A stretch of 64,000 nucleotides of DNA, taken from the NCBI RefSeq assembly GCF_001984175.1, contig NZ_MTQP01000066.1, positions 1 to 64,000 on the forward strand. Direction: 5' to 3'. Shown here in pieces: positions 8,398 through 37,391 of this stretch; position 1 is the stretch's first letter; each line of letters opens with the position of its first letter. The position numbers were made by a program, and so were the translations under genes. This stretch comes from Saccharothrix sp. ALI-22-I (lineage in GTDB: Bacteria > Actinomycetota > Actinomycetes > Mycobacteriales > Pseudonocardiaceae). The notes under the pieces are model-generated. The model had not been told where the DNA came from, ran no database searches, and saw only the letters and a program-made list of their open reading frames with translations.

Positions 8398-8553
8398 TCA
8401 GTCGTCCTCGCGGATCGGGGTGCCTTCGCCGTCTCCGGGGAACGCCGGGTCGACCGCCCACCGCTCACCGTCGAACACCAGGACCACGCCCTTGTCGGTG
8501 AACCTGCGATCGCCCGGCTCGGGCGGCCGCTCGTGCTCAGCCTCGGCCGTCAC
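8398..8553 (-). CDS. 51-residue acidic protein at the end of the CHAT operon
   Basis: GTG 8553 overlaps the 3' end of the hydrolase gene by 17 bases. The product runs VTAEAEHERPPEPGDRR, then FTDKGVVLVFDGERWAVDP, ending in GTPIREDD. The codon pattern is that of a coding frame, and the middle looks like a small beta hairpin. It has no TM or signal. As the last gene of a CHAT-hydrolase operon it might be an adaptor or an inhibitor of the hydrolase. No family is recognised. Confidence 0.5.
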   Translation of the reverse strand: MTAEAEHERPPEPGDRRFTDKGVVLVFDGERWAVDPAFPGDGEGTPIREDD

Positions 8554-14153: not shown

Positions 14154-16088
14154 ATGTCAGCAGGTGCACCCGTTCCGTCGCTCCAGTCGTACTTCCCCGG
14201 CGACCAGGTCGACGAGCAGGTCCGCGCGGCAAGGGAAGCGCTGGTGAAGGCCGGCTCGAACCGGTCGAGGCGGGTCGAGGGGCTGATCTACCTGGCCGCC
14301 GCGCTGTACGGGCGACACCAGTACACCCATCAACAGGCGGAAGTCGACGAAGGCGTCGAACTGCTTCGCCAGGCGATTTCACTGACACCGGCTCGACACC
14401 AGCTCCGGGACAAGGCGGAACGGGTACTCGCTTTGCTGCTGTGCGTTCGGATGACCCCGGACGCGGTCGCCGAGTCGATCACCCTCACCGCCGGGTTGCT
14501 GAACCGGAGGGCACTGGAGTCGACGCAGGACGCGATGCTGCTGGTCCAGCTGGGAATGGCGTTGACGGCCGCGTCCAACCACGGGGGCAGCACCGGGCTG
14601 CTCGACGACGGGGTCGCCCTGCTCGAACGGGCGGCCGACACCACGACCACCGCCGGGTCCGCGATCAAGCGGCTGAAGGCCGATCTCGCGCGGTTCGCGC
14701 TGGCGATCGCGCTGACCGCGCGGTACTCGGTCCGGTGGTCGACCGACCCGAGGGACGCCGAACGTGCGGGCGAGCTGCTCGAAGGGCTGGACGTGGACCG
14801 GGTCGAGCAGACGCTCCCCGGCTTCGAGGACCTCCTCCGGCAGATGAAGCACGGGCTGGCGGCGGTCCGCGCGCAAAACGGCGGTGCCCCCGGGCAGCCC
14901 TCGCCCGACCCGGTGGTGGTGCCGAGAGCCACCTCCGGCCCGATGTCGGGGGCCATGGGCAAGTCCCTGCACACCACCAGGTCGCTCCTGGACGCCGGGA
15001 TCGCCTACGGGATGACGAGCGACCTCGCCTCGTTCGACGCGTGGCTCGCCGACCTCCGCGAGGAGCTGCACGGCCTCGCCGACGACTCGCCCCTGCGGGA
15101 GAGTCTTCTGGTGTGCCTGGCGCAGGTGCACTCCCTCCGCTTCCGCAACCGGCAGCTCGCCGGGCTCGCGGACGCGCGGTGGGACCTGGACCAGGCGCTG
15201 TCGTTCGCCAGGGAGGCAGTCGCCCTGCCGGTCCGCGACGTGGACAGCATGGCCGACGGGGTGCTCGCCGTGTGCCTGCTCGACCGGTACATCCTCGGTC
15301 TCGGCACCAAGGCGGACCTGGAGGAGTCCGTCGAGTTGTTGCGCCACGCGATCGCGAGGTGCCGCGCCGACTCGCGCAGCGCGCTTGCGGTGAGCGGCAC
15401 GCTCGCCGAGGCGCTGGTGGCGCGCGGCGCGGCCAACCACAGCCTGGAGGACATCAACGAGGCCGAGGACGTGCTCGTCACCTTCTACGAACGCCTCGCC
15501 CCGCAGTCGCCCGTCCGGCCGATAGCCGCGGTGCGGCTGGCGGTCTTCCTCCAGCACCGCTCCGCGCTGACCGGGGACACCGAGGACGTGCTGCGGGCAT
15601 CGGCGGCGTCGCGTACAAGCATGGCAGCGGCTGCGGAGACCAGCATCGTCTGGGCCTACGACGCCGCGCTGCACTGGGCGCACTGGACGTGGGACTACGG
15701 GCCCGCGGCGGAACGGGCCGACGCCTACCAGCAGGTGGTGCGATTCCTGTACCGGCTGGCCAGGGCGCAGAGCGACCGCGGCCACGCGGAGTTCGCCCTG
15801 CGCCGGAGTTCGCAGGGGGTGCTCGCCCGCGCCATGCGGGCGCTCGCCGCCGACGGCCGGTTCACCGACGCCGTCGTGTCCGCCGAGACCGGGCGCGCGG
15901 TGCTGCTGTCCGCCGCGCTGGAGCGGGACGGACCGGCGCTGGACGACGCGATCCCCGCCGAGCTGCGGCAGCGGTTCTCGGACGCCGGCGAACGGCTGCG
16001 CGCCGCGGAGTCCGCCGCCGCCCAGGTCGCGGCCAACCAGCTCACCTCCGACCAGTTCCCGACCGACACGGCGAGGAGACGACCGTGA
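14154..16088 (+). CDS. TPR-like repeat protein, first gene of the kinase operon
   Basis: A 644-residue protein. ATG 14154 is chosen because GAGGAA (14142-14147) lies 6 bases upstream. It consists of helical repeats (REALVKAGSNRSRRVEGL, VDEGVELLRQAI, DLEESVELLRHAI, DINEAEDVLVTFYERLA) similar to the sensor halves of TPR-CHAT proteins, but ends without a CHAT domain. The end contains RRSSQGVLARAMRALA and AVVSAETGRAVLLSAALER, the segment that precedes CHAT in fused proteins, so it looks like a CHAT sensor arm that lost or never had its protease. It overlaps the kinase GTG by 3 bases. It may present ligands to the kinase. Confidence 0.75.
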   Translation: MSAGAPVPSLQSYFPGDQVDEQVRAAREALVKAGSNRSRRVEGLIYLAAALYGRHQYTHQQAEVDEGVELLRQAISLTPARHQLRDKAERVLALLLCVRMTPDAVAESITLTAGLLNRRALESTQDAMLLVQLGMALTAASNHGGSTGLLDDGVALLERAADTTTTAGSAIKRLKADLARFALAIALTARYSVRWSTDPRDAERAGELLEGLDVDRVEQTLPGFEDLLRQMKHGLAAVRAQNGGAPGQPSPDPVVVPRATSGPMSGAMGKSLHTTRSLLDAGIAYGMTSDLASFDAWLADLREELHGLADDSPLRESLLVCLAQVHSLRFRNRQLAGLADARWDLDQALSFAREAVALPVRDVDSMADGVLAVCLLDRYILGLGTKADLEESVELLRHAIARCRADSRSALAVSGTLAEALVARGAANHSLEDINEAEDVLVTFYERLAPQSPVRPIAAVRLAVFLQHRSALTGDTEDVLRASAASRTSMAAAAETSIVWAYDAALHWAHWTWDYGPAAERADAYQQVVRFLYRLARAQSDRGHAEFALRRSSQGVLARAMRALAADGRFTDAVVSAETGRAVLLSAALERDGPALDDAIPAELRQRFSDAGERLRAAESAAAQVAANQLTSDQFPTDTARRRP

Positions 16089-18544: not shown

Positions 18545-18569
18545 CACCCACCACCGGAAGGGACTGGCG

Positions 18570-19799
18570 TTGAGCGGAATCACCGCGGTCACGTACGTCG
18601 TGGAGAGCAAGGACGAACAGCGCCGTCGTCGGCAGCGCGAGGAGTGGGAGCGCTACTCGGCGCGACGGGCCGAGCTCAGCGCGCTGCGCGCCGAGGCCGA
18701 CGCGTACCGCACGGTGTTCGGCGCCGAGGTGGCCAAGATCCCCGCGGCGCCTCGGGCCCGCCCCGGCTCCGCGCCCGAACGGATCGCGGCAGCCGCCGAG
18801 GAGACCGGCGAACTGGTCGCGAAGCACCGGGAGCGGTTGCGGGAGTCGGTGGCTGTCGCGGCGAAGCGGGAGGCGCTGCGCACCGTCGCCGCCGCCGTGC
18901 CGGTCCCGGCCGCCGACCAGGGCGAGCGCGTCGCCACCGGCAAGTTCACCCGCAAGCCCACAGCGGACGAGGAACGGGAACGCGAACTGCGCGCGCGTTC
19001 GGAACGGGTGCGCCAAGGGCTGGTGGACAAGGCGACCGAGCAGCTGGCGCGCCTGCCCGCGTACGCGCCGGAGCAGACCCGGATCGCCTGCACGCAGGCC
19101 GTGGCCGAGCTGTCGACCACCCCGTCCGAGGCCAGGGCACGACTGCTCCTCGCGGACCTCGTCGGCCGGGTGCGCCGCGAAGTCGAGGCGGAGCAGGACG
19201 TCCAGGAGACGCACACCGCGTTGGAGGCGCTGTCCGCGAGGTTGGAGGCGGTCGCACCGGCCGACTCGGCCGGCCTGCGCCAGGAGATCGCGGCCCTGCT
19301 GCGGGCCCGCGCCCGCAAGGTGCCGGAAGCGTTGCCCGGCCGGGTCACCGCGCTGGTGGACGCCGCCGACCGGGCGCACCGCCGCAAGCAGGTCGCCGCC
19401 GCGCTGCGGTTGAGCCTGGAAGACCTCCAGTACCAGGTGACGGAGGGGTTCGAGACCGTGCTGGCCGCCGAGGGCTTCGCCTACGCCAGTCTGCCCGACC
19501 GACCCGGCTACGGCGTCAAGCTCCTGCTCGACGCGGGCCAGGACAAGATCCGGACGCAGGTCGTGCGGTCGGAGCGGCTGCGACCGGACGGGACCGCGGA
19601 CGCCGACGCGGAGCAGGGCTTCTGCGCGCAGTACCCGACCCTGCTGAGCAGGTTGCGCAAGCACGGTGTCGAACCGGGCGACCCCGGCCTGCGTCCGCCC
19701 GGCCAGGGCACGGTCGCACCGGTCGCCGAAGAGCTGATCCCGGCCGCCGAGACCGGCCGGCACGAGTCCCACCAACGCCGGCAGGAGATGCGGTCATGA
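18570..19799 (+). CDS. Charged coiled-coil protein of unknown function
   Basis: A 409-residue protein from TTG 18570, with GGAAGG upstream. It is very rich in Arg, Glu and Ala (KDEQRRRRQREEWERYSARR; ERERELRARSERVRQGL) and mostly long helices likely to form coiled coils. The last 110 residues (LQYQVTEGFETVLAAEGFAY, GYGVKLLLDAGQDKI) appear to form a small alpha/beta domain. No TM. Its stop overlaps the AAA+ gene start by 3 bases, so it probably acts with that ATPase, for example as an adaptor or scaffold. I do not recognise the family. Confidence 0.75.
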   Translation: MSGITAVTYVVESKDEQRRRRQREEWERYSARRAELSALRAEADAYRTVFGAEVAKIPAAPRARPGSAPERIAAAAEETGELVAKHRERLRESVAVAAKREALRTVAAAVPVPAADQGERVATGKFTRKPTADEERERELRARSERVRQGLVDKATEQLARLPAYAPEQTRIACTQAVAELSTTPSEARARLLLADLVGRVRREVEAEQDVQETHTALEALSARLEAVAPADSAGLRQEIAALLRARARKVPEALPGRVTALVDAADRAHRRKQVAAALRLSLEDLQYQVTEGFETVLAAEGFAYASLPDRPGYGVKLLLDAGQDKIRTQVVRSERLRPDGTADADAEQGFCAQYPTLLSRLRKHGVEPGDPGLRPPGQGTVAPVAEELIPAAETGRHESHQRRQEMRS

Positions 19800-21634
19800 C
19801 CACTTCGGACGACGAACGCCCCGCCTGGCTGCGCGAGGTCGAGCTGGCGCTGTGCGCGCACCCGCAGATCGTCCTCACCGGCAACGTGCACGACCTGCAC
19901 CGGCTGCCCGACCCGGCCAACTCCGGCGCGGTGCGGTTCATGAACCTGGTGGAAGGCCTGTGGAGCGTCGCGCGGACCCGCGGGTTCGGGGCGATGCTCA
20001 CCTATTCGACCGGCGTCGGCGTGCAGCTGTTCGCCGCGAGCAAGTCGCCGCAGCCACCCGAGGTCGCCGCCGTGCTGCGCACCGCCGGGGTGGAGCTGGG
20101 CCGCCAGCTCCCGCTGTCGATGGTGCGCGACGTGCTGACCGCGGTGGTGGACCCGCAGCGGCAGCGCGCGGACCTGCCGCCGGTCGCGCTGGTGCTCACC
20201 GACGCCGCGCGGCTGTTCTTCGGCGAGATGCTGTCACCGGAGGAACGGCTGCTGATGTCCGCCGCGGACCGGTTGGCCTACGCGGCGACGCCGGTCGGCG
20301 CGGCCTACAACACGGTGTTCTGGGTGCTGGACCGCAAGCACGACCTGCCGTCCTGGTTCGTCACCGGCAACCACACGCTGCGCATCACCGCGATTCCGGA
20401 ACCGGATCTGGAAACGAGGCAGCGCATGGCCGGGGACCTCGTCGAAATGTTGCCCGGTGTTCCGGACGACCCCGACGCGCGGAAGCTGCTGGCGAAGCGG
20501 TTCGCCGACGCCAGCCACGGGATGCGGTTGCGCAGCATGCGCGACGTCGTGCGGCTGGCCAACGCGTCGGGCATCACGGGCGACCGGGTGGAGGACGCCA
20601 TCCGCGCGTACCGCGTCGGCGTGCCGGACAACCCCTGGCAGAGCGCCGCGTTGCGGACGCGGCTGAAGGGGGCCGAGGAGTACCTGGGCGACCGGGTGCT
20701 CGGCCAGCCCGACGCCGTGCACCGCGTGCTCGACATCCTGGCCCGCTCGGTCACCGGACTCGCGGGCGCGCACACCGGCAGCCGGAACGCGCCACGCGGT
20801 GTGCTGTTCTTCGCGGGCCCCACCGGCGTCGGCAAGACCGAACTGGCCAAGGCGTTGGCGGAACTGCTGTTCGGCGACGAGAACGCCTACCTCCGGTTCG
20901 ACATGAGTGAGTTCGCGGCCGAGCACACCGAGGCACGGCTGATCGGCGCCCCGCCGGGATTCGTCGGCCACGACGTGGGCGGCGAACTGACCAACGGCAT
21001 CCGCCAGCAGCCGTTCCGGGTGGTGCTGTTCGACGAGATCGAGAAGGCGCACCCCCGGCTGCTGGACAAGTTCCTGCAGATCCTCGACGACGGCAGGCTC
21101 ACCGACGGCCAGGGCGGCACGGTGTACTTCACCGAGGCGCTCATCGTGTTCACCACCAACCTGGGCATCATCGTCCGCGACGAGGACGGCAAGACCGTCG
21201 AGAACGTCAGTCCCGATTCGGAGCTGCCGGAGATCGAGGAACGGGTCCGGGCGCACATCGAGGCGTTCTTCCGGCACCTGCTCGGCCGGCCGGAGCTGTT
21301 CAACCGGGTGCAGCAGAGCATCGTGGTGTTCGACTTCCTCCGCGAGGAGGTCGCGGGCCTGATCAGCGACCGCGCGGTGCAGCGGGTGGTCGACACCGTC
21401 GCGCGCCTGTTCGAGACCACATTGGCCTTCTCCGACGAGGCCCGCGACGAACTGCGCGACCACGCCACGTTCGACCTGTCCAACGGCGGCCGGGGCATCG
21501 TGTCCGCGATCGAGAAGCACCTGGTGAACCCGTTGGCGCGCAGGCTGTTCCTCAACCCGCCCCAGCCCGGCGACACGGTCGTGGTCAAGCGGTTCGAGCA
21601 GGAGGGCCAGAACTGGAAGGTGGTGGTGGAGTGA
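19796..21634 (+). CDS. AAA+ ATPase: degenerate N-terminal module plus ClpB-type module
   Basis: A 612-residue protein. Residues 20-280 look like a worn AAA module (HPQIVLTGNVHDLHRL, VALVLTDAARLFFGE in the Walker B place) without any Walker A. Residues 290-612 match the second AAA module of ClpA/ClpB: GPTGVGKT (341-348), LFDEIEKAHP (from 411), a sensor FTTNLG, LFNR near the Arg finger and a C-terminal small domain (GRGIVSAIEKHLVNPLARRLF). There is no ClpN domain and no ClpP-binding loop that I can see. It is probably a remodelling or switch ATPase rather than a general chaperone. It is coupled to the coiled-coil gene before it and the radical SAM gene after it. Confidence 0.88.
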   Translation: MTTSDDERPAWLREVELALCAHPQIVLTGNVHDLHRLPDPANSGAVRFMNLVEGLWSVARTRGFGAMLTYSTGVGVQLFAASKSPQPPEVAAVLRTAGVELGRQLPLSMVRDVLTAVVDPQRQRADLPPVALVLTDAARLFFGEMLSPEERLLMSAADRLAYAATPVGAAYNTVFWVLDRKHDLPSWFVTGNHTLRITAIPEPDLETRQRMAGDLVEMLPGVPDDPDARKLLAKRFADASHGMRLRSMRDVVRLANASGITGDRVEDAIRAYRVGVPDNPWQSAALRTRLKGAEEYLGDRVLGQPDAVHRVLDILARSVTGLAGAHTGSRNAPRGVLFFAGPTGVGKTELAKALAELLFGDENAYLRFDMSEFAAEHTEARLIGAPPGFVGHDVGGELTNGIRQQPFRVVLFDEIEKAHPRLLDKFLQILDDGRLTDGQGGTVYFTEALIVFTTNLGIIVRDEDGKTVENVSPDSELPEIEERVRAHIEAFFRHLLGRPELFNRVQQSIVVFDFLREEVAGLISDRAVQRVVDTVARLFETTLAFSDEARDELRDHATFDLSNGGRGIVSAIEKHLVNPLARRLFLNPPQPGDTVVVKRFEQEGQNWKVVVE

Positions 21635-22275
21635 AGCTGCGACTGTCGCGCGTGCACCACCCGGTGACCGCGCTCGGACCGGGCACCCGCATCGGCATCT
21701 GGACCAAGGGCTGCGCCATCGCCTGTCCCGGCTGCGCGTCCCGCGACACCTGGGACGCCGACGAACAAGACGAGGTCGACGTCGCGGACGTGCTGGCCTG
21801 GTGCGCCACCACGGACCCGACCCTGGTGACCGGGGTCACCATCACCGGCGGCGAACCGTCCGAGCAGCCGGAGGCGCTCACCGCGCTGGTGACCGGACTG
21901 GACGCGTTCCGCTGCGACCACGACTGGGACGTGCTGTGCTACACCGGCGTCGAGCACGACGAGTTCGCCGCGCGCTGCCCCGACGTGCCGGGCCTGATCG
22001 ACGCGCTCGTCACCGGGCCCTACCGCGCGGGACGGCCGACCGACCTGGTGTGGCGCGGCTCGGCCAACCAGCGGCTGATCCCGCTGGGCGAGCGCGGGCA
22101 CGACCGCTACCAGCGCTGGGTGGACGCCCGATCGGACCGGCCGTCGCTCCAACTGCACGTCGAGGACGACCGGGTGTGGCTGATCGGGGTACCGCGCGCG
22201 GGCGATCTCGCCCGGTTGCAGCGCACCCTCGGCAGGCGTGGAATCGCATTGGAGGGTCCGTCATGGCGACCTTGA
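21631..22275 (+). CDS. NrdG-like radical SAM 4Fe-4S protein
   Basis: A 214-residue protein; GTG 21631 overlaps the AAA+ stop. The motif TKGCAIACPGCAS gives CxxxCxxC for the 4Fe-4S cluster, and TITGGEPSEQPEAL is the GGE SAM-binding motif. Size and order fit anaerobic ribonucleotide reductase activase-type proteins. There is no NrdD gene nearby, so it is unlikely to serve deoxynucleotide synthesis. Similar orphan activases are known in actinomycete conflict loci. In this operon it may modify a partner protein through a glycyl or other radical, or make a nucleotide-derived signal; this is inference. Confidence 0.85.
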   Translation: MKLRLSRVHHPVTALGPGTRIGIWTKGCAIACPGCASRDTWDADEQDEVDVADVLAWCATTDPTLVTGVTITGGEPSEQPEALTALVTGLDAFRCDHDWDVLCYTGVEHDEFAARCPDVPGLIDALVTGPYRAGRPTDLVWRGSANQRLIPLGERGHDRYQRWVDARSDRPSLQLHVEDDRVWLIGVPRAGDLARLQRTLGRRGIALEGPSWRP

Positions 22276-23542: not shown

Positions 23543-23544
23543 GG

Positions 23545-23567
23545 GGTGCCACGGCGGTCACGGCACC
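23545..23567. terminator. Candidate bidirectional terminator between two convergent operons
   Basis: GGTGCC (23545-23550) pairs with GGCACC (23562-23567), with an 11-base loop. It follows the PP2C stop and overlaps the last codons of the opposite GAP1-like gene. A modest stem, but the position between two ends fits. Confidence 0.45.
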
Positions 23568-27440: not shown

Positions 27441-29648
27441 CTACCGCACACCACCCAACACCTGACGCACCGACTCGGGCCGCAACGGCAGCAGCCGCAC
27501 GGTGCCGACGAAGTCCCCGCCCTCGCTCCACACCACGCCCGGGTCGGCGACGAGCGCCTTGTGCGCGCCGTCGCGTTCGAGCACCTGCCGCAATCGCGCC
27601 GGAGCGAATCGGACCAGGCCCGGCTCGGTCACGGTGCTGAGGTAACCGAGCTGGCCGCTGCGGCACAGCTGCGTCATGTCGCTGCTCCCGTCGGAGCGCA
27701 GCGCGGCCAGCGCGACCGGCGACTCCGACCAGACGCGCCCCATCAGCGCGTCCCGCGGCCCCGGGTCGTGGCTGAACCTGGTCGCGGTCATCAGGCCGTT
27801 GCGCCGGACGTCCCCGCCGTACTCGGCGAGCAGCCGGTCCAGCCGCTGGGCGTACAGCCCTTGCGGCGTGGGCATGACCGCCGCCGCGGCCGGCCAGGCG
27901 GGTTCCAGCGCGCTGCGGCAGACGTCGACCAGATCGCTGCGAACGACGGCGTACAACTCCTGGGGAACCGGCCGCACCATCCGGGCGTGATCGCCGGCCG
28001 AGACCTCCAGTGCCACGAAGAGCCGGTTGCCCGCGTCTCCGAGCGTGGTGGCGATCTCCTCCAGGCCGCCCGCGACCTCGGCGGCCGCGGCGGCGAGGGC
28101 CCGCCTGCGCTGCATCGGCAGCCACTCGCGTGCCGTCACCTCCTCGGCGGTCCGGGTCAGGTCACCGACCGCGGCGCGCAGTTGCGCCACCCTCAGTCGA
28201 CCGCGCCAGTCCTGCACCGCCGAACGCCAGCTCAGCACGACGACCGCCGCGCTGAGCAGGACGGTGAGCACGGCGGCGACCGGGGTGACCCACGGCGGCA
28301 CGTCCACCAGCCACCCGGCCAGCTGCACGGCGAACATCTGCCCCACGACGATTCCGAACACCGTCCCGAGAACGCCGGCGACCCCGTACGTGATCACGGC
28401 CGGGGGCAGTGCGGCCTCCAGACCGCACTCGGCCTCCGGTCCCGGCCGCCGCGCCAGCAGCAGCCAACCCGACCCGAACCACCCCGCGGCGAGCAGGCCG
28501 CCCGCCACCCAGCCCAGCCAGCCGGACCCGATCAGCAGGGTCAGCAGGGCACAGGCCACGAAGATCAGCGGCAAGGTCACCAGCGGGAGCGGCCAGGTGC
28601 GGAACCGCGGCATCTCCAGGCTCAGCGGGCCGCGCCGCTGCACCTCGTCCACCGCCGCCGTGCACCCCTGCGGACCGCTGTTCACGGCCACCAGCCGCAG
28701 GTCCTGTGCCAGCGCGGAAAGCGCGGCCCCCGCGTCGAGCCTGGCGTCGACGGCCTGCTTCAGATCCGCCGCGATCTCGCCGCCGTCGACCTCGCGGGGA
28801 CGCGGCACTCCGAGCGCCACCACCTCCTCGAACGACGGACGCCCGACCTGGAGGTGGCCGTCCATGCGGTTGAGCAGCTCGGCCACCGCGCGGCGGTAGT
28901 TCTCCACCGCCTGACCCGCCCAGACCACCTGGCTGCCCAGTCGTTCGGTCGAGCGGGGCGAGTAGAGCAACGCCTTCGTCGTCCCGAGCGTGCGGGCCAA
29001 CTCGGCGACTTGGTCCAGCCGCCGCAACGCCTCCGTCCGCGAGGTCTGCACCGGCCCGGACAGCACCGCGCCATCCCGGCTGCTCGGCAGGTAGGAGCGG
29101 CCGATCGACGCGCCGAGGTCGTGCGGCACCGAGTGCTCCGGCGCGCACAGCGACGCGACCGCCGCGGCCCGCGCTTCGGCGAGCTCCACCGGGTCGGCGG
29201 CGCTGGACACCAGCCGGATGCCGGGGTTGACCGCCGCACTGGACAGCCCCTCCGCCACCGCGACCACCTGGTCGAACAGTGTCGGCACCCGCAACGCGGC
29301 GACCAGGCTGTCCAAGGCGTCACCCGGCTGTTCGACCGGCCGCGGGACCGATCGCTCCGGCGCCCAGTCCACGCCCTGGGTGTCACCGACCCACAGGACG
29401 GTGGCGTGCCGCAGTGCCGGCGGCACGGAGAGCACCACCCCGTCGAGCGGGTTCTCCGTGCTCGCCTCGCCGACCGCGACGCACACGACGGCCGTCACCA
29501 TGTCCTCGGCCAGCAGCGACAGGTAGGTCTCCGCGTGCTCCACCAGAGCACTGGCGTGGTCGATGACCACGACACCGCCGGCCACCACGTCCGGTGGCTC
29601 GGCATCCGGGTCGCGCAGGTCGACCAGAACGATCCTCGACGTGTTCAT
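27441..29648 (-). CDS. Large membrane protein of unknown function
   Basis: A 735-residue protein; ATG 29648 overlaps the tubulin-like stop, and its own stop is directly followed by the next start. The N-terminal 360 residues are soluble alpha/beta (VVVIDHASALVEHAETYLSL, ATVLWVGDTQGVDW). Four to six hydrophobic segments lie about 365-510 (PLPLVTLPLIFVACALLTLL, VGQMFAVQLAGWLVDVPPW). The C-terminal 220 residues are soluble and helical, ending in a beta-rich stretch. No enzyme motif seen. The N-half resembles a Rossmann-like or vWA-like module without a MIDAS. Its place between the tubulin-like and GTPase genes suggests a membrane platform. Confidence 0.7.
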   Translation of the reverse strand: MNTSRIVLVDLRDPDAEPPDVVAGGVVVIDHASALVEHAETYLSLLAEDMVTAVVCVAVGEASTENPLDGVVLSVPPALRHATVLWVGDTQGVDWAPERSVPRPVEQPGDALDSLVAALRVPTLFDQVVAVAEGLSSAAVNPGIRLVSSAADPVELAEARAAAVASLCAPEHSVPHDLGASIGRSYLPSSRDGAVLSGPVQTSRTEALRRLDQVAELARTLGTTKALLYSPRSTERLGSQVVWAGQAVENYRRAVAELLNRMDGHLQVGRPSFEEVVALGVPRPREVDGGEIAADLKQAVDARLDAGAALSALAQDLRLVAVNSGPQGCTAAVDEVQRRGPLSLEMPRFRTWPLPLVTLPLIFVACALLTLLIGSGWLGWVAGGLLAAGWFGSGWLLLARRPGPEAECGLEAALPPAVITYGVAGVLGTVFGIVVGQMFAVQLAGWLVDVPPWVTPVAAVLTVLLSAAVVVLSWRSAVQDWRGRLRVAQLRAAVGDLTRTAEEVTAREWLPMQRRRALAAAAAEVAGGLEEIATTLGDAGNRLFVALEVSAGDHARMVRPVPQELYAVVRSDLVDVCRSALEPAWPAAAAVMPTPQGLYAQRLDRLLAEYGGDVRRNGLMTATRFSHDPGPRDALMGRVWSESPVALAALRSDGSSDMTQLCRSGQLGYLSTVTEPGLVRFAPARLRQVLERDGAHKALVADPGVVWSEGGDFVGTVRLLPLRPESVRQVLGGVR

Positions 29649-32600
29649 GCCGATGCGTCACCGCCCAGGCCTTCCGCGAAGTCCACCTGTTCGCGCAGGT
29701 CGAGCAGGTTCTTCGCGGTGGCGCCGACGTGCTGGTGCAGCGCGGCCGGTAGCGTCCTTGACCAGAACTCCCGGAAGACGGCGAGCTGCGGGTCCTGGCT
29801 GAGCACCCGGTTCTGCTCGGCTTCCTTGATCTTGAGCAGCTCCGGCCCGGCGAGGTCCACGATCGCGGCGAACTCCGGTGCGGGCGGCGACGGCGACCGG
29901 TCGGCCTGGGCAGGGATCGTCGACATGAGCCTGGACGCGAGACCGCGCCGGGTCGGGTTGTCGTCGGTGAGCACCCAGCGCTCGTAGGCCTGCAACACGC
30001 TGGCCCACGACGACAGCGCGCCGATCGGCGTCAGCTCCAGCTTCATCGACACCGCCTCCCGGCTGCCGATCAGCACGGTGATGTGGCGCGGGCTGGCGGG
30101 ATCGCCGGAGACGAAGACCTTGCCGTCCCACGCCGCGCAGAGCAGCCGGTGCAGCACGTGCTGCCGGTCCTGCTCACCCATGAGCAGGTAGTCGCTGTCC
30201 TGGCTCAGCCTGCGCCGCCAGGCAAGGCTGTCCTGCGGCTGCGGGTGGCGCTGCGCCTCCGCCCAGAGCTTGATGACCCGGCGCAGCTCGGGCACCTCGG
30301 TGATGCCCATCGAACTGCGGTTGAGCACCACGATCATCGAGTCGGCCTGCACGGCGCGGAACTCCGGCTCACCGACCATGTCGATCGGCAGCGAGACCTC
30401 GCGGCGCAGGAACCGCTCGATGTCCGCGTTCTCCTGCGCGGACGGGTAGGTGAACAGCGCCTTGAGCGGCGCGTGCCCGTCCGGCGCGAAACCACCGGGC
30501 ACCAGCTCCGCCAGCTTCTGCCGGAACCTGTTCAGATCCGGCTCGGCGACCGTGTTGTTGTCCCGCCGCTGCACGGCGTTCGCCAGCAGGTCCTCCATCC
30601 GCGGCACCAGCGCGGGCCGGGTGCGGTCGCTGGGACGCACGCGTTCGGCGACGGCCTCCTTGATCCGCTGGCGGACGCGCGCGACCGCGGCCTCCGGGTC
30701 CTTCTGGCCCGCGTCGAACGCCTCGGTCCAGCCGTCCCGCCCGAGGATCAGGTTGAGCAGGTGGCCCTCGTGCGCGTTCGGGCCGAGGTGCTGCGAGAAA
30801 TCCTCCTTCAGCCGCAACAGCACCGTCTGGTAGAAGCCCTCCAGGCCGCGATCCTCCTGCGGCAGCAGGTAGGTGACGCCGACGCGCGACTTGTAGAGGT
30901 CCTGCGACCGCAGGTCGAACTGCGCGGGGTCGTTGCGGGCGTGCGTGACGAACGCGTCGTGGATCGCCCGGAACTCCTCGATGAACGCTTGCCACGGCCG
31001 GTCCCACAGCCGGTGGCTGTCGTTCCACGCCGCGTTCCAGATCCGCCGCGACTGCCAGGCGTACCAGGCGTCCTGCTGCCGCATCACGGCCTGCACGGGC
31101 TCGTCGGCGATCCGCAGCCGTTGCATGAACTTCTTCTGCAGGTTGTTCGGCAGCGGGGCGGAAGCGGAGTTCAGCCCCGGCGGTGCCGCGGGCGGCACCC
31201 GCCACGTCTCCAGCAGCGAGCGGAACCCGCCCTTGTCCAACGGGTCGGCGAGGTCGCGGTGGCCGAAAACGGTGCGGTGCAACCGGAACAGGTCCAGCTC
31301 CCGGAACAGAACCCTGGCGGCGGCCGACGGGTTGAACTCCTGCGCCAGCGTCGCGACCGGCCCGCCGAGTTTGTCCTTGTCGCGGTCGATGTTGGCGCCG
31401 ATCGCGTTGGCGCGCTCGGTCAGCGCCGCGATCACCGGCCCGTAGCCGACCGGGTTGCCCTGCGGCGGGATTCGGGCGGGCGTCGCCTCCAACAACCGGT
31501 CCAGGCCCGCCGCGCTGATGAACTGCCGGATGTGCGCCTTGTTCGTCTCGGCGGCGCCCGGCGGCACGAGCAGCTCGTTGACCGCGTTGGCGAGCAGGTG
31601 CGAGCTGACCACGTCGGTCAACTCCAGCACCGGCGTGGTCAGCGCGGCCACCGCACTCGTGGTCACACCCCGGCGGCCGACACCGGTGTCCGCGGTGGCG
31701 TGGCGGTCCACCTTGCTGTTGATGAAACCGTCCGCGAAGGACTGGTAGGGGCGGTTGGCGCCGTCCTCGTCGTCGTCCTGCTCGGTGGGGCCCGCGCCGA
31801 TCAGCGACGTCATCAACGAGACCATCGACCGGTTGAGGTCGTCGCGGCGCACCCCGCCGACCGGGCGGCCGAACAGGAACGCGGTCTGCACCGTGTTCGG
31901 CGCCAGCTGCACCTGGTCCAGCTTCGGGTAGCGCACGGACACGGCGCCGTGCGTTCCCTTGTGGTCCAACGCGTCCGGTGAGCCTTGCGCGTTCTGGTCG
32001 TCGATCAACCGGAACAGGTCGACCAGCGCGGAGCCCGCGTTGAGATCGGCCGGACGGCCGCCGCCCTGCCCGTCGTCGAACGCCGACGGCATGAGCACCA
32101 GCGGGTAGATCTCGGCCTGCTTCCCGCCGCGCTGCATCAGGTCGCCGATCAGGTGCAGGTAGTCGTAGAAGATCCCGCTGCCGGTGCCACCGGCCACCGA
32201 GAACACCACGAACACGATCACCGTGTCGACCCGCTGGGTGCGCTTGCCGCTCACCACGTAGAGGTCGCCGGCGGACTCGTTGATGTCCGCCAACGCGGCC
32301 TTGATCCCGAGCAGCGCCGTGTCCGGGTTGCGCCGGATCGTCTCGAACAGCACGCCGCGCCCGACGGTCGGCAGCTGGCCCGCGCCGCGCACCAGCGGAC
32401 CGATCCGCGGGTCGCTCTCCTTGGAGGGCAACCAGCGGATGGCGTCCTCGTCGATGTTGATCCGCAGGCTCTGCGCCACGTCGGCGGAGTTGCCCAACCG
32501 GGCCGGCACCAGGTCGGCGATCTGGTGCATCGTCTTCTGCGCCGCCTGCTCGTGCTCCCGTCCGGGGACCACCTCCCGCCGGACGCGTTGCAGCTCGTTC

Positions 32601-32797
32601 GCGCTGAGGTCGGCGTACACGAACTGCAGGCACGACGGCAGCTGGTACGGCAGGAAGTTCGGGTTCTGGATGTCGGCCAGCAGCCTGGTGCCGTCCGGAC
32701 CGCAGAGCTCCTCGCGCAGGCGCTTCTCCAGCTCGGCGCCGACCTTGCAGCCCGTCCCGCCGAGTCCGACGAACATCATCGGTTGATAGATCCTCAT
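29645..32797 (-). CDS. Tubulin/FtsZ-superfamily protein (Tubulin_2 type)
   Basis: A 1050-residue protein from ATG 32797. It opens with MRIYQPMMFVGLGGTG, the first GTPase loop, and has the tubulin signature GGTGSG (203-208) in VVFSVAGGTGSGIFYDYL. These are the features of the tubulin-like family seen in actinobacterial conflict operons, not of cell-division FtsZ, which is about 400 residues. The remaining 750 residues are mainly helical (KEAVAERVRPSDRTRP, VSLPIDMVGEPEF) and may form an oligomer or sensor arm. No TM. It should bind GTP and polymerise or act as a switch; this is family knowledge. Confidence 0.85.
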   Translation of the reverse strand: MRIYQPMMFVGLGGTGCKVGAELEKRLREELCGPDGTRLLADIQNPNFLPYQLPSCLQFVYADLSANELQRVRREVVPGREHEQAAQKTMHQIADLVPARLGNSADVAQSLRINIDEDAIRWLPSKESDPRIGPLVRGAGQLPTVGRGVLFETIRRNPDTALLGIKAALADINESAGDLYVVSGKRTQRVDTVIVFVVFSVAGGTGSGIFYDYLHLIGDLMQRGGKQAEIYPLVLMPSAFDDGQGGGRPADLNAGSALVDLFRLIDDQNAQGSPDALDHKGTHGAVSVRYPKLDQVQLAPNTVQTAFLFGRPVGGVRRDDLNRSMVSLMTSLIGAGPTEQDDDEDGANRPYQSFADGFINSKVDRHATADTGVGRRGVTTSAVAALTTPVLELTDVVSSHLLANAVNELLVPPGAAETNKAHIRQFISAAGLDRLLEATPARIPPQGNPVGYGPVIAALTERANAIGANIDRDKDKLGGPVATLAQEFNPSAAARVLFRELDLFRLHRTVFGHRDLADPLDKGGFRSLLETWRVPPAAPPGLNSASAPLPNNLQKKFMQRLRIADEPVQAVMRQQDAWYAWQSRRIWNAAWNDSHRLWDRPWQAFIEEFRAIHDAFVTHARNDPAQFDLRSQDLYKSRVGVTYLLPQEDRGLEGFYQTVLLRLKEDFSQHLGPNAHEGHLLNLILGRDGWTEAFDAGQKDPEAAVARVRQRIKEAVAERVRPSDRTRPALVPRMEDLLANAVQRRDNNTVAEPDLNRFRQKLAELVPGGFAPDGHAPLKALFTYPSAQENADIERFLRREVSLPIDMVGEPEFRAVQADSMIVVLNRSSMGITEVPELRRVIKLWAEAQRHPQPQDSLAWRRRLSQDSDYLLMGEQDRQHVLHRLLCAAWDGKVFVSGDPASPRHITVLIGSREAVSMKLELTPIGALSSWASVLQAYERWVLTDDNPTRRGLASRLMSTIPAQADRSPSPPAPEFAAIVDLAGPELLKIKEAEQNRVLSQDPQLAVFREFWSRTLPAALHQHVGATAKNLLDLREQVDFAEGLGGDASA

Positions 32798-32844
32798 TAC
32801 GGCATCGTCCTCACGGTCGCAGGCCGGACAACTGTGTTGGTCAT
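32797..32844 (-). CDS. 15-residue bridging ORF
   Basis: ATG 32844 overlaps the upstream gene's stop by 4 bases (ATGA) and its own TAA shares one base with the next ATG (TAATG). It encodes MTNTVVRPATVRTMP. A GGGGGAAGAG sequence precedes it. Its tight fit between two genes suggests it carries ribosomes across to the tubulin-like gene, whatever the peptide does. Confidence 0.45.
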   Translation of the reverse strand: MTNTVVRPATVRTMP

Positions 32845-33908
32845 TGGCTCTTCCCCCGACTCTCGATCACTTCCAGCAGACGACGGACGGACTCGGTGAC
32901 CTCGTGGAAGAGGCCGTCCTCTGTGGACGGGGCGGTCCGTTCGACGCCCGTGCCGAACACCCGCATGCCGAACGCGCGGCGCAGTTCCTCCCCGGTGTCG
33001 CCGAGCGAGTCGGCGTAGTCGGGCAACGAGCGCATCTCGATCGCGAGCTCGTGCGCCCACTTCGCGGACAACCGGTGCTTGGACGACTCGCGCGCGAGAT
33101 ATCCGGCCAGCACGGCGATCGGGATGGTCACGGACAGCCTGAGCAGCTCGGCGGCAACGGAAGCGGCGTCGCCGAGGAGGTTGATCACGATGCCGGCGCC
33201 CGCGATGAGCACGAGGAGTCCGGCTACCACGACCCGCAGCAGGTCCGCTCTCTTGGTCTCGTTCTCACCGTGGTCGGCGTAGTAGCGACCGAGCTCCTTG
33301 AGCGCGGCATTGCCGGCGGCCTTCCGCTGGTCCGCGCGCACCCGCTTGACCAGCGCCCGCTCGGTCTGCTCGAAGAGCTTGCGGGCCTTGAGCTGACGGG
33401 ACGCGTCCTTCGCGACGAGCAGTGCGTTGGCCCGCGCCTTCGCGTGGCCGGGGTCACCGGCGGTTCGTTCGACCACGGCGACGAACGTGTCGACGGCCTT
33501 CTCCAGGTCCTGCCGCAGGGTGCTCGCCAGACCGGTCAGCCGGTCCACCAGGTGGTCGACCGATCCGCTTCGCTCCTCGTCCGGTGACCCCACTCTGTCG
33601 ATGGCGACCATGCACGCGCCGAAGTCGTCGATCGTCGAGTGGATGCGGGCGAAGGCTTCGACGTACGTCTTGTCCTTCCGCACCGCCGCACTGACCACCT
33701 CGGCCACCTCGGTCTTGCGCAGGCACCGGTAGACGAACTCGGCGACCAGCCCCACGTCGCCACAGGCCAGCTGCACGCGTTCGTCCGGCACCGTGCTCCA
33801 GTCGGCACGGATGCGGGCGTCGAGCTTCTCGACCGCGTCCGCCGCTTCGCGCAGGGTCCTGGCCCAGGAAAGGCTCGGATCGGCCGGGTCGCCGCCGTTG
33901 GGCGTCAT
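32841..33908 (-). CDS. Two-TM membrane protein, function unknown
   Basis: A 355-residue protein. The first 210 residues are helical and charged (SWARTLREAADAVEKLDARI, HLVDRLTGLASTLRQDLEKA, ALVKRVRADQRKAAGNA). Two adjacent TM helices follow (LLRVVVAGLLVLIAGAGIVI and LSVTIPIAVLAGYLA), then a 100-residue soluble tail. The hairpin layout puts both soluble parts on the same side. No known domain. It is followed by the bridging ORF and the tubulin-like gene, so it may anchor the tubulin-like protein to the membrane. Confidence 0.7.
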   Translation of the reverse strand: MTPNGGDPADPSLSWARTLREAADAVEKLDARIRADWSTVPDERVQLACGDVGLVAEFVYRCLRKTEVAEVVSAAVRKDKTYVEAFARIHSTIDDFGACMVAIDRVGSPDEERSGSVDHLVDRLTGLASTLRQDLEKAVDTFVAVVERTAGDPGHAKARANALLVAKDASRQLKARKLFEQTERALVKRVRADQRKAAGNAALKELGRYYADHGENETKRADLLRVVVAGLLVLIAGAGIVINLLGDAASVAAELLRLSVTIPIAVLAGYLARESSKHRLSAKWAHELAIEMRSLPDYADSLGDTGEELRRAFGMRVFGTGVERTAPSTEDGLFHEVTESVRRLLEVIESRGKSQ

Positions 33909-33911
33909 CGG

Positions 33912-34970
33912 CTACACACCACCTTCCCGCTTGAGGTACTCCGCGGCCGGAATCACGCCCTTGGCGCTGCGCTCATCCCATTCCGCCTGCTCGTTGATCA
34001 GCTCTTTGAACGCGGGCAACTCGACCGGACCGCCGCACACACGTCGGACCACCCACTGAAAAGCCAGCACGTCGACCAGGAAGTAGGCGCCGAGCGTCCC
34101 GAGCGCCACACCGGCCGCTTGTTGCCGCTTGTGCTGATCGACCGAGGAGAACGCCGACAACTTCGTGCGCACCTGCGGGCGTGGGCCGAGCTGCTCCAGT
34201 TGATCCTCGATCTCACCGGCGCGCTTCTGGGCGTCGTTCCGCTCCCGGGTGAGGCGATCGAACTGTCCCTGCGCGGCGGTCCGCGCGTTCGCGAGCTCTC
34301 CCTCGGCCTTTCCGATCTCGCTCTCCAGCCGCTCCCGACGCCCTTTCTTCTCGCGGTAGGCGTCGCCTCGGCCCTCGTCCATGGTCCCGCAACTGCCGTC
34401 CAGCTCGCACAGCTCGTTGTCCCACGCCACCACGAGTTGGGCTCGCAGGTCGGTGAGTTGCTTGGTGAGCCGCTCCACTTCCGGGTCCCGCTCGGTCGGC
34501 CGCACCTCCCGATTCGCGATCTCCCGCACGCCGTCGAGCTCGTCGTGCAGACGACCGGACTCCTTGTCCCACTTGCCGGGCGCCTCCAGTCCCCGAGCCG
34601 CCTCGACGTCACTGCCGAACACCCACAAGGTCACCGAGAACGCCACGAAGAACGCCGCGCACAAGCCGAGCGCGCGCCGCGGACGCGGCATCTCCGGCGG
34701 TCGGACACCCCGGTGCATCCGGCCGACGGTCCAGCGGTTCAGCAGCCACAGCGCGACGAAGACGACGGGAATCGCCACCACCGAGACCCACAGCGGCGCC
34801 TGCAGCCCGTAGAAGATCGACAGACCCACCACGGCCGTCGAGACGAAGGCGAACAGGCGGGCGGATCGGCGCAGGGCCTTGAGCTGAGCGTGGGAACCCT
34901 GGCGCCTCCGGCCGGCCTCGGCCTCCTTCCTACGTCGGGCCGAGCCGCCGAACATTCGAGAGCTTCGCAT
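33912..34970 (-). CDS. DUF4407-like membrane protein with long coiled coil
   Basis: A 352-residue protein with GGGAG 10 bases before ATG 34970. A basic N-terminus (RRRKEAEAGRRRQG) precedes two TM helices (LFAFVSTAVVGLSIFYGL; VVAIPVVFVALWLL) and a third (LGLCAAFFVAFSVTLWVFG). A coiled coil of about 130 residues follows (EVERLTKQLTDLRAQLVVAW, LESEIGKAEGELANARTA), then a fourth TM and a short tail. This order (membrane bundle split by an extracytoplasmic coiled coil) resembles DUF4407 proteins. Two Cys in the coil (ELCELDGSCG) could form a disulfide. Probably a membrane sensor or scaffold. Confidence 0.65.
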   Translation of the reverse strand: MRSSRMFGGSARRRKEAEAGRRRQGSHAQLKALRRSARLFAFVSTAVVGLSIFYGLQAPLWVSVVAIPVVFVALWLLNRWTVGRMHRGVRPPEMPRPRRALGLCAAFFVAFSVTLWVFGSDVEAARGLEAPGKWDKESGRLHDELDGVREIANREVRPTERDPEVERLTKQLTDLRAQLVVAWDNELCELDGSCGTMDEGRGDAYREKKGRRERLESEIGKAEGELANARTAAQGQFDRLTRERNDAQKRAGEIEDQLEQLGPRPQVRTKLSAFSSVDQHKRQQAAGVALGTLGAYFLVDVLAFQWVVRRVCGGPVELPAFKELINEQAEWDERSAKGVIPAAEYLKREGGV

Positions 34971-34988
34971 GATCGCCGCACTCCCTGG

Positions 34989-37391
34989 TCACGCGAACGG
35001 GTTGTTCGGGTCGACGGAGGAGCTGCGGTCCGGCGCCGGTGTGTGGTTCGCCGTCCCGCCGGAAGGGCCGGCACCGAACGGGTCCGTCGGCACCGAGTGC
35101 GACACCGTCGGCGACGACGCGAACGGGTCGCTGTGCGAGCCACCGAACGGGTCGGGCGGTGGCACGGAGGACGGCGGCGAAGCGTTGACCCCCGCGAACG
35201 GGTCCGAAGTGGACGTTCCGAACACGTCGGTGGGCGGTCCGGCGACGGCACCGCCGACGGTCCCGAGCTCATCGGTGACGGAGACGGCCAAGTCCTTGCC
35301 GACGTCCCGGCGTTCGCCGATGGCCAGCAGCACCGGCCGCTCCCCCGGCGCGGTGAGGCTGATGTTCCGGCCGACGCGCCGCACCTCGTACACGTTCACC
35401 TCACCCTCACCGGCGTGCTGCAGCTGCAGCCCGGTGAAGTCGTCGTGCAGGACGAACCGGAACACCTTGCCGTTCGGGTCGCGCGGCGCCAGCTCCGAGG
35501 CGGGGAACCCGCCCTGCCACAGCTGGGCGAGCAACCCCCGCGCCTTGCCCGCCTCGCTGCGGGAGCGCAGCCTCAACAACAACCAGGCCGTCGCGACCAG
35601 CAGCAGCACCGCGAGTGGGATCCACAGCCAGAGGTACTTCTCCAGCAGCCCCGGCTCGGGCGTGACCTCGATGGCGAACAAGCGCTCGGCCACGGGCGCG
35701 TTCGCGGCGTCGACCAGGCGCAGCTTCGCGCCGCCGGCACCGAGCTTGGTGTCGGCGCCGAACCGCAGCGTGAACGGCATCTCGGTCTTGCCGGGGGCCG
35801 CCTCCACGGTGGCCGGGTCCACGGTCAGCGTGGTGTCGGGCGAGAGGTCGTCGATGTTCAGCCTCAGCCGGGCAGGCCGGCCGGAGTTGTTGGTGACCGA
35901 CACCGTGCCGGTCACCGTGCCACCCGGCGACACGGTCGCGCGGTTGCTGTCGAACAGGATCTGCGCCTGGACCTGCGCCACGCCGGCGAGCACCCTGGTC
36001 GACAGCACGCGGGTATCCCCGCCGACGCCGATGCCGGTGACCTGACCGGTGAAGGTGAGCTCACCCGACGCGCCGTCGGGCACCCTGAGCCGCCCGGCGA
36101 ACGTGCCGTCGCCGTCGGGATCGGCGAGCGTGACCCGCTGCTCCGGAAAACCCGAACCACCGGTCATGGCCGTGACGAACGTCAGGCCCTTCAGCGTCTC
36201 GGGGTCGATGACGGCACTTCCGCGCGCCCACACCTGCATGTCGACCTCGACCTCCTGCCCCGCCGCCGGCTGGGGCGGGGTGGCGGTCAGGTTCGCCTTG
36301 ACGGCGGCCTGGTAGACGACGGTGGCGGCCACTTCCTGCGCGGGAACGTCGGCCGAGGACAACCGGACGGTCCAGCGCCCCGGCTCCGGGTCGGTGATGC
36401 GCAACGACTCCGTCTCGGTCGACTGCCCCGCGAACTCGAAGTCCGAACCGCCCGCCTTCGGCGCGGGCTCGCTCGCGCTCGGCGCCCGGTATTCGACCTG
36501 CACTCGCGCGTCGCGCTTGTAGACGAGGATGGACGCGTCGCTGGCAACGGCCGGGATGTCGACCACGAGTTCGACCGAGCCGCCGGTGGGCAGGGTTCCG
36601 CCGACCGGCGGGTTGATCTTGACGCAGCTCGCCGAGCTGAGCGCGTTCGCGACCGCTGCCCTCAGCTCCGCGATATCGGGGACGACCCGTTCCTGCGGAT
36701 CGGGCGCGGCCGGGGTGCAACTCGCGCCCTTCGCGAAACCACGCAGGGCATTGACGTCGACGTCACCGAATCCGAGCGGCCACACCTGGGCTCCCGCTTT
36801 GTCCAGGTCGCCGAGCACTTCCTGGACTTTCGCGGCGGCCGCGCCATTGCGCCGGTCCGCTGTGTCACCCCAGGACGGGCTGCCGGAAACATCGAGCTTG
36901 CCGTCGGTCAGCAGGAAGACGACCTTCTTGGCCGGCTCGGCCGCCCCGACGAATGCCAGAGCCTGCTGCAACGCGGTGGCGTGGTCGGTTCCGTCGCCCT
37001 CGTCGTCTTTGCGCTTGCGCAGGTTGCCAATGCACTTCGCGAGTGAGTCGCGCTGCTGCCCCGAATCCAGTCTGGTCGGCTGGCACACGACGTCGACCGC
37101 GCTCTGCCCCGGCCGCTCGGAGCTGCCGAAGCCCACCACGGACACGACCGAACCCGGCGCCAACACGCTCGCCGCGATCGTCCTAGCAGCCTCTTTCTCC
37201 GCGACGACGTCCTCGTCATCGAGGCTGCCCGACTGGTCGACGAGCACGACGACCTGGAGCGCGGGCAGCGTGGCAGGCGAATCCTGTTGGGCCGCGGCAT
37301 CGGATGCCACAAACGGCGGCGTCAACGTGCAGATGCCGACCGCCGTCGCCAACAGAGCCCGTCGAAACGTGTTCTTCCCGCGATATTCCAT
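34989..37391 (-). CDS. Exported vWA-domain membrane protein with DPF/NPF-rich tail
   Basis: About 800 residues. ATG 37391 (MEYRGKNTFRRALLATAVG) has a GGCAGGG upstream and a good signal peptide; a GTG at 37409 is also possible. The vWA domain follows at once, with the MIDAS DQSGS near residue 52 (VVVLVDQSGSLDDED), then FLLTDGKLD. About 300 residues of Ig-like beta domains come next (VTGTVSVTNNSGRPARL), then one TM (YLWLWIPLAVLLLVATAWLL, about 590-612) and a cytoplasmic part with a beta domain (VFRFVLHDDFTGLQLQ). The tail repeats DPFA, DPFG, DPFA, DPFG and ends NPFA. First gene of the minus-strand operon. vWA proteins with MoxR/AAA partners are typical of such systems. Confidence 0.85.
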   Translation of the reverse strand: MEYRGKNTFRRALLATAVGICTLTPPFVASDAAAQQDSPATLPALQVVVLVDQSGSLDDEDVVAEKEAARTIAASVLAPGSVVSVVGFGSSERPGQSAVDVVCQPTRLDSGQQRDSLAKCIGNLRKRKDDEGDGTDHATALQQALAFVGAAEPAKKVVFLLTDGKLDVSGSPSWGDTADRRNGAAAAKVQEVLGDLDKAGAQVWPLGFGDVDVNALRGFAKGASCTPAAPDPQERVVPDIAELRAAVANALSSASCVKINPPVGGTLPTGGSVELVVDIPAVASDASILVYKRDARVQVEYRAPSASEPAPKAGGSDFEFAGQSTETESLRITDPEPGRWTVRLSSADVPAQEVAATVVYQAAVKANLTATPPQPAAGQEVEVDMQVWARGSAVIDPETLKGLTFVTAMTGGSGFPEQRVTLADPDGDGTFAGRLRVPDGASGELTFTGQVTGIGVGGDTRVLSTRVLAGVAQVQAQILFDSNRATVSPGGTVTGTVSVTNNSGRPARLRLNIDDLSPDTTLTVDPATVEAAPGKTEMPFTLRFGADTKLGAGGAKLRLVDAANAPVAERLFAIEVTPEPGLLEKYLWLWIPLAVLLLVATAWLLLRLRSRSEAGKARGLLAQLWQGGFPASELAPRDPNGKVFRFVLHDDFTGLQLQHAGEGEVNVYEVRRVGRNISLTAPGERPVLLAIGERRDVGKDLAVSVTDELGTVGGAVAGPPTDVFGTSTSDPFAGVNASPPSSVPPPDPFGGSHSDPFASSPTVSHSVPTDPFGAGPSGGTANHTPAPDRSSSVDPNNPFA

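Follow-up and report, generated by a model that had tools for sequence, protein, structure and literature searches.

Two tail-to-tail operons in Saccharothrix sp. ALI-22-I: a candidate AAA+/radical SAM switch beside a divergent tubulin/DO-GTPase-type system

One system or two

When two operons face each other across a few bases, do their genes work as one system or as two that happen to adjoin? The question is raised by a window of 64,000 nucleotides from Saccharothrix sp. ALI-22-I (the whole stretch analyzed here; assembly GCF_001984175.1, contig NZ_MTQP01000066.1, positions 1 to 64,000), in which two convergent, near-gapless operons extend over 14154-23542 on the plus strand (operon 1) and 37391-23558 on the minus strand (operon 2). 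A first-pass annotation, made from the DNA letters, had combined both into a single set of sixteen genes. We found instead two separable accessory systems that meet tail to tail. Operon 1 was searched for with the N-terminal region of its AAA+ protein, because the full-length query matched all 120 genomes via ordinary Clp proteins; it was detected in 8 of 394 genomes of the class and 27 of 390 genomes of the family, while the tubulin gene of operon 2 was present in 19 of the 394 class genomes and, among 120 genomes sampled from the family, in 10 (the window's genome is counted throughout). Among the 394 class genomes, only the window's genome carries both operons. In 28 distinct operon-2 loci, read over stretches of 12-23 kb, no AAA+, radical SAM, FHA, or PP2C gene of the operon-1 type was found, and a kinase occurred at one of them (L001). 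Conserved linkage therefore divides in two: across other actinomycete genomes it is strong within each operon and was not seen between them outside the window, and a single combined 16-gene system is not supported by the genome distribution.

Gene calling by codon bias bore out the two tightly packed convergent units. The region holds 15 genes rather than sixteen, seven on the plus strand (operon 1, here lettered a to g) and eight on the minus strand (operon 2, a to h), with 15 bases separating the operon ends at 23542 and 23558; neighboring genes within the operons overlap by 4-13 bases or leave gaps of at most 43. The gene dropped from the count is a 15-codon open reading frame (ORF) at 32844-32797 (minus strand), first taken for a bridge between two genes. 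The junctions printed from relatives do not retain it as an ORF, and it was rejected as a peptide on that ground; the stretch is read instead as the ribosome-binding leader of the tubulin gene, and a Shine-Dalgarno stretch of the GTGAGGACG type recurs ahead of the tubulin ATG in most of those junctions. Three starts were re-read from the DNA: 14154 for the first gene of operon 1, 26463 for the DO-GTPase gene, where an ATGA overlap of 4 bases adds an N-terminal CPVC segment, and 37391 for the vWA gene, which gains a signal-peptide-like N terminus. Pfam confirmed the kinase (PF00069), AAA_2, Fer4_12 radical SAM, FHA, PP2C_2, Tubulin_2, DUF4407, and vWA genes, and hydrophobic segments were judged by eye, without a transmembrane prediction program. 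The source genome comprises 10.3 Mb, the G+C content of the window is 71.6%, and its best-matching named relatives belong to Saccharothrix, Actinokineospora, and Amycolatopsis, together with one strain filed as Nocardia, which indicates the family Pseudonocardiaceae.

The operon-1 core and its exchangeable neighbors

The operon-1 set comprised 31 genomes, with the weak partial matches in G603, G708, and G709 left out; motif counts were taken over 34 loci, namely those of the 31 genomes and three divergent ones (G603, G708, and a second locus of G667), G709 being excluded. Kinase, AAA+, radical SAM, and FHA genes were co-present in all 31 genomes, and PP2C was detected at the loci of 14 of them, the window included. 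Pairwise distances of the core proteins track those of the AAA+ protein (Mantel r 0.73-0.94, with 0 of 2000 permutations as high), a correlation to which shared species history may contribute. The CxxxCxxC motif of the radical SAM protein and the Walker A motif of the AAA+ protein were each observed at 34 of 34 loci.

The first gene of operon 1 (a, 14154..16088, +) encodes a helical-repeat-like protein without a CHAT domain, which has homologs in all three closest relatives (G625, G615, and G665), produced no Pfam or NCBIfam match, and was likened by eye to the N-terminal part of TPR-CHAT proteins. A Ser/Thr kinase follows (b, 16085..18544, +; PF00069, 4.6e-30), with HRD and DFG present and C-terminal hydrophobic segments, and then a long-helix scaffold with a small C-terminal alpha+beta domain bearing Cys352 (c, 18570..19799, +; AlphaFold predicted local distance difference test, pLDDT, 89). 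The Clp-type AAA+ protein (d, 19796..21634, +) combines a degenerate first module with an active-looking second one. It is succeeded by an orphan NrdG-like radical SAM protein with CxxxCxxC (e, 21631..22275, +; PF13353, 6.7e-24), an FHA protein whose Cys-rich N terminus appears zinc-ribbon-like from the cysteine pairs read in the sequence (f, 22263..22799, +; PF00498, 9.8e-17), and a PP2C phosphatase (g, 22796..23542, +; PF13672, 5.3e-13). In the enzymes of the window itself, the signature motifs appear intact.

The predicted model of the AAA+ protein (predicted template-modeling score 0.55, with parts of the second module at pLDDT 50-70) aligns over residues 6-612 with the D1 and D2 modules of ClpB/ClpC, exhibiting the same fold in both modules as these Hsp100 proteins. 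Unlike them, it lacks Walker A in the first module (0 of 40 aligned sequences, none before residue 325, against 40 of 40 in the second), gave no Clp N match, and reached no equivalog cut-off (257 bits against 1232 for the ClpB equivalog). The scaffold is less familiar: the window protein had no Pfam match (1 of 29 members matched DUF1542 at 0.0035), no sequence match in the PDB, and no fold match at E 0.001 in the PDB or viral models, and a profile search recovered 17 proteins, of which those with a source name are all called hypothetical. An iterated scaffold profile was dropped owing to drift into coiled-coil stretches. A Cys near the scaffold's C terminus was found at 34 of 34 loci (with a weak, tentative assignment at L040), counted by position from the C terminus, as MAFFT did not align these residues in one column. 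The radical SAM protein is short, NrdG-like, and without extra domains, scoring 79.3 bits against the 126.1 required by the NrdG model TIGR02491. NrdD was found in none of the 31 operon-1 genomes, in a search whose control was positive in 6 of 14 genomes; the enzyme is therefore an orphan with respect to NrdD, as the first reading had it, and a role as NrdD activase is rejected for these genomes. Activation of another glycyl-radical enzyme was likewise set aside: the window's genome has no Gly_radical match, and 5 of the 31 genomes have one elsewhere.

More divergent loci with AAA+, radical SAM, and scaffold genes were also encountered (L113:178-12874, L111:4047-12214, and L112). This branch couples the three-gene core to a kinase-like gene, joined in L113 by vWA, PP2C, and TPR genes and a dynamin-like GTPase, hinting at a wider AAA-radical SAM superfamily of systems.

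Upstream of operon 1 and divergent from it lie two CHAT protease-like genes, CHAT1 (9628..11310, -; PF12770, 1e-18) and CHAT2 (11335..12591, -; PF12770, 1.2e-55), with the H/C dyads ACHN..NACRS and ACHG..SACET, respectively. Next to them is a TPR-like helical-repeat protein, a possible CHAT partner recognized through sub-threshold TPR matches (12597..13910, -), which has homologs in one of the three closest relatives (G625, locus L087). A 364-aa protein with weak alpha/beta-hydrolase matches below cut-off (8537..9631, -) is possibly also part of the unit; its homolog (178 bits) stands among the CHAT genes of G625 (L087) only. The first pass had treated CHAT as a mere neighbor, a view that the relatives do not support. 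In G625, G615, and G665, operon 1 comes with homologs of both CHAT genes and with a CHAT-less helical-repeat gene, though the layouts differ, and CHAT1 homologs stand beside the operon; the operon-1 unit therefore probably starts near 9.6 kb, and operon 1 and the divergent CHAT/TPR genes upstream (~9.6-23.5 kb) probably form one unit. Among the matches listed, a CHAT gene lay within 15 kb of the AAA+ match in 23 of 31 genomes, compared with 0.67 expected by random placement (related loci are not independent in this count), comprising 22 of 24 genomes of the window's own family and 1 of 7 outside it. With a single CHAT profile run on the fetched stretches, 19 of 31 operon-1 genomes (16-40 kb) were positive, against 2 of the 28 operon-2 loci, for which the stretches were somewhat shorter (12-23 kb).

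The arrangement of these neighbors varies. In G022, G684, and G686 the gene immediately after the kinase is a large one that carries CHAT, and CHAT genes stand on both sides of the operon-1 set in G558, G563, G676, and G683, among others. The H/C dyad is kept in 22 of 28 aligned CHAT domains, both window copies included; it is missing from the second CHAT of the flanking type (5 of 5 aligned) and from the L039 copy. An extended operon-1 type (L096, L097, L099-L102, and L105-L107) has CHAT genes on both sides, one of them dyad-less where aligned, along with an OmpA-like gene and several ORFs of no known family. At L041, L095, and L098 (G066, G611, and G627), genes for a GAP1-like protein, a protein of 480-501 aa with no assigned family, and DUF4407 diverge from operon 1, and no DO-GTPase match was found in the stretches read. 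In the window, a TIR-NB-ARC-TPR protein (6072-8384, +), preceded by a helix-turn-helix regulator (4749-6053, +), lies just beyond the CHAT genes; TIR genes were also observed near operon 1 in G615, G022, G684, and G686, and a RES-TIR fusion in L104. Such swapping of CHAT, GAP1-like, and TIR partners around a fixed operon-1 core resembles the effector exchange in the systems of Kaur et al. 2020 (PMC7159879).

Operon 1 is the more novel part of the region and apparently an undescribed set, in keeping with the novelty first suspected: no description of it was found in the literature searched, a body that leaves out subscription papers and preprints beyond it. Kaur et al. 2020 (PMC7159879) mention radical SAM once, for FtsH-type systems, some of which are suggested to modify a peptide effector by this means, and the term was not found in the available text of Kaur et al. 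2021 (PMC8195603). The so-called third theme of GAP1-N2 systems (active kinase, PP2C, and vWA) shares kinase and PP2C with operon 1 in an actinomycete; unlike it, operon 1 lacks DO-GTPase and vWA, whose place is taken by AAA+, radical SAM, FHA, and scaffold genes. With the MoxR-vWA ternary systems, including the FtsH type, operon 1 shares an energy-gated logic, an inactive AAA module followed by an active one, and a radical SAM protein, which those systems have in one subset, whereas its AAA+ protein is of the Clp/ClpB type (AAA_2) rather than MoxR or FtsH, and no vWA match was obtained. PADLOC, run on 10 proteins of the region, returned scattered single-gene matches (mad6, PD-T4-6, MkoA, PDC-M37B, DolB, mad8, and BovA), mostly to the kinase and AAA+ proteins; the radical SAM, FHA, PP2C, tubulin, and vWA proteins produced none, and no known system was matched by several genes.

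Operon 2 and the tubulin/DO-GTPase theme

Operon 2 opens with a protein combining a signal-peptide-like start, a vWA domain, a hydrophobic segment, and a tail (a, 34989..37391, -; PF13519, 5.1e-10), followed by a DUF4407-like protein (b, 33912..34955, -; PF14362, 5.8e-15) and a protein with hydrophobic segments (c, 32841..33908, -), each of the latter two seen in 6 of 28 loci, which form a close clade. The Tubulin_2 protein (d, 29645..32797, -; PF13809, 1.6e-53) matches over residues 9-406 of 1050 and continues into a long C-terminal region. In G625, one in-frame TGA was reported in the span of the tubulin match (C1:4854617-4857757), and the gene call at L115 is 1046 aa long. Downstream are a protein of no assigned family with hydrophobic segments and no Pfam match (e, 27441..29648, -), a pseudokinase in a conserved position with a C-terminal hydrophobic tail (f, 26460..27440, -), a DO-GTPase2-like protein with an N-terminal CxxC segment (g, 25387..26463, -), and a remote GAP1-like protein with a hydrophobic segment toward its C terminus (h, 23558..25390, -). 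Across the 28 loci, tubulin, DO-GTPase, and the family-less protein were each present in 28, vWA in 27 (the remaining locus ends at a contig end), and the GAP1-like gene in 20, whereas the pseudokinase was its own best match in 24 and at the remaining 4 lay in a single ORF together with the GTPase; the profiles were built from most of the loci counted. In five named relatives the tubulin is most conserved (80-85%), with 30-38% for the GAP1-like protein and 23-37% for DUF4407. By these comparisons, the conservation of operon 2 reads as a fixed core with variable ends. At L047, a DUF4231 domain, which we take to be SLATT-like, is fused at the C terminus of the protein in the GAP1 position.

Three of these assignments required closer inspection. 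The DO-GTPase call has indirect support: the window protein, in a 336-aa version with a truncated start, scored 15.7 bits against PF19993, below the cut-off of 27, whereas its ortholog at L001 (69% identical) passed with 31.6 bits, and a DVAGE motif was read in the window sequence. The pseudokinase had no Pfam match, and its designation fits the sequence by eye, with HGA in place of HRD and DFE in place of DFG. For the last gene, which has no Pfam match, hhalign against canonical GAP1-N2 proteins gave E 1e-4 at probability 57, colinear over 8-211/3-220, while the controls lay at E 0.2-0.8 for eight other operon families and at E 1 for five column shuffles. At E 0.01, the window's genome yielded nothing with PF20013 (GAP1-N2), so that canonical membership was rejected, and the protein is best called a divergent GAP1 relative. 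Matches over the GAP1-N2 cut-off occur in 9 of 20 tubulin genomes, away from the tubulin loci; the 8 of these 9 loci that were fetched each contain two DO-GTPase-like genes and no tubulin match.

The kinship to nucleoside triphosphate-dependent conflict systems of multicellular bacteria, suggested at the outset, finds its counterpart here. Kaur et al. 2020 (PMC7159879) describe an actinobacterial tubulin theme of DO-GTPase/GAP1-N2 conflict systems whose parts, in the portion of that paper available, are a DO-GTPase, GAP1-N2, a single tubulin with a C-terminal helical region, and FNIII-repeat proteins fused to HRDC or vWA; zinc ribbons are also reported there, and SLATT fusions are described for GAP1. 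Operon 2 shares with this theme a single tubulin with a long C-terminal region (the helical character of which is only assumed), a vWA protein with a signal-peptide-like start, and a DO-GTPase-like gene followed by a GAP1-like one. The CPVC segment of its GTPase is comparable to the zinc ribbons, and the L047 fusion recalls those with SLATT. Unlike the published tubulin systems as far as they are described there, its GAP1 protein falls short of PF20013, its genes include one for a vWA protein but gave no match to FNIII or HRDC at E 1, and it adds the pseudokinase and the family-less protein. Judged from these shared features, operon 2 is a divergent form of the published tubulin/DO-GTPase/GAP1-like systems.

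Proposed roles and competing explanations

Our preferred explanation, to which we give an even chance, keeps the two systems separate: operon 1 and the CHAT unit would form a phospho-gated AAA+/radical SAM switch, operon 2 would be a divergent system of the Kaur type, and both would serve a conditional response such as defense or cell death. For operon 1, control of the CHAT proteases by such a switch is likely. The kinase would respond to an envelope or intracellular cue, and upon phosphorylation the helical scaffold and the FHA protein would come together on the AAA+ machine. A modification that the radical SAM protein makes, or that its iron-sulfur cluster permits, would license the complex, the conserved Cys of the scaffold being a candidate site. 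Remodeling by the AAA+ protein could then free or activate the CHAT proteases, which would cleave host proteins, and PP2C would reset the switch. In operon 2, a surface vWA sensor may signal through the membrane proteins and the pseudokinase to GTP-dependent tubulin assembly. Both systems fit an energy-gated conditional response, which may be phage defense or regulated cell death; a role of this kind, suggested by analogy, is favored over housekeeping by the patchy distribution and the CHAT and TIR neighbors. A bolder extension, in which operon 1 would be the first of a new class of conflict systems, with radical SAM modification of the scaffold's one conserved Cys licensing AAA+-driven activation of exchangeable death effectors (CHAT, TIR, and GAP1-like), is doubtful.

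If the preferred explanation is right, operon 1 would be a modular switch, energy-gated and so far unreported, in which caspase-like CHAT proteases are linked to radical SAM chemistry and to a Clp-type unfoldase that is half dead; the known range of cell-death-like systems in multicellular actinomycetes would thereby grow. Precise tests could start from the NrdG-like enzyme, present where NrdD was not found, from the one conserved Cys of a partner encoded at the loci read, and from a defined minimal gene set. The recognition of a separable tubulin/GTPase operon guards against describing a false 16-gene system.

Several observations pull the other way, besides the dependence among related loci given with the CHAT count. 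The tubulin operon is also found in five of the 30 other operon-1 genomes, the three closest relatives among them: it lies ~40 kb away in G667, ~550 kb in G625, and several Mb in G665 and G615, while G684 has it on another contig. The two operons may thus be functionally tied, though nothing requires it. A Fisher test of co-occurrence within the family (5/23 versus 9/116, from different samples) gave a non-significant P of 0.057. The core profiles were built from the same operon-1 loci in which the genes were counted, and a second Cys occurs in 10 of 34 scaffold tails. By crude patterns, strict motifs fail in some relatives, which counts against a uniform phospho-signaling role: the kinase keeps an HRD-type motif in 27 and DFG in 25 of 34 loci, PP2C keeps DxMGG in 10 and DDN in 2 of 14, and FHA keeps SxxHA in 26 of 31, so that not all copies need be active. 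CHAT is not obligatory, being near only 1 of 7 loci outside the family and, among the matches listed, absent from G529 and G533 within it. The operon-2 proteins, finally, do not pass the curated GAP1-N2 model.

Stress responses and development commonly make use of kinase/PP2C/FHA sets and of unfoldases of the Clp type, and this usual role, together with the intact-looking motifs of the window's enzymes, speaks for operon 1 as a stress-response or developmental phospho-switch with a quality-control AAA+ protein rather than a defense system. We consider this somewhat unlikely, given the patchiness of the operon (27 of 390 family genomes and, among the genomes listed for the window's genus, 3 with a match and at least 20 without) and the variable neighbors with CHAT, TIR, or GAP1-like genes alongside. 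That both operons cooperate as one system, with tubulin polymers as the target of the AAA+ protein and the GAP1-like protein as a shared adaptor, is suggested by their adjacency in the window, by the tubulin operon in three of the three closest relatives and its proximity in G667, and by the GAP1-like and DUF4407 genes divergent beside operon 1 in G066, G611, and G627, so that such adaptors do occur with it; this is nonetheless quite improbable, since 25 of the 30 other operon-1 genomes have no tubulin match and the operons are not adjacent in any other locus read.

Production by operon 1 of a radical SAM-modified peptide (a ribosomally synthesized and post-translationally modified peptide), with the remaining genes in regulation or export, would agree with the peptide-effector suggestion for some FtsH-type systems in the available part of Kaur et al. 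2020 (PMC7159879) and with the small ORFs of no known family at some loci. It is very unlikely: the enzyme is a short, NrdG-like one that has no extra domains, none of the window's operon-1 junctions showed a conspicuous precursor-like ORF (precursors were not systematically searched for in relatives), and no exporter is found among the operon-1 genes. Kinase, FHA, PP2C, and a ClpV-like AAA+ protein are among the components of type VI secretion, and the AAA+ protein scores 197 bits against ClpV/TssH, but operon 1 as the arm through which phosphorylation controls a contractile or secretion machine is scarcely credible, as that score falls far below the cut-off of 885, no sheath or baseplate family was detected among the window proteins scanned (sheath genes were not searched for in the rest of the genome), and radical SAM and CHAT would be left unexplained.

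Outside these systems, the window encodes a single-module AMP-binding/carrier/hexapeptide protein followed by an M1 peptidase-like gene (43957-47649, +), a rhamnogalacturonan lyase with CBM2 (52856-55087, -), and a LacI-type regulator (55263-56273, -).

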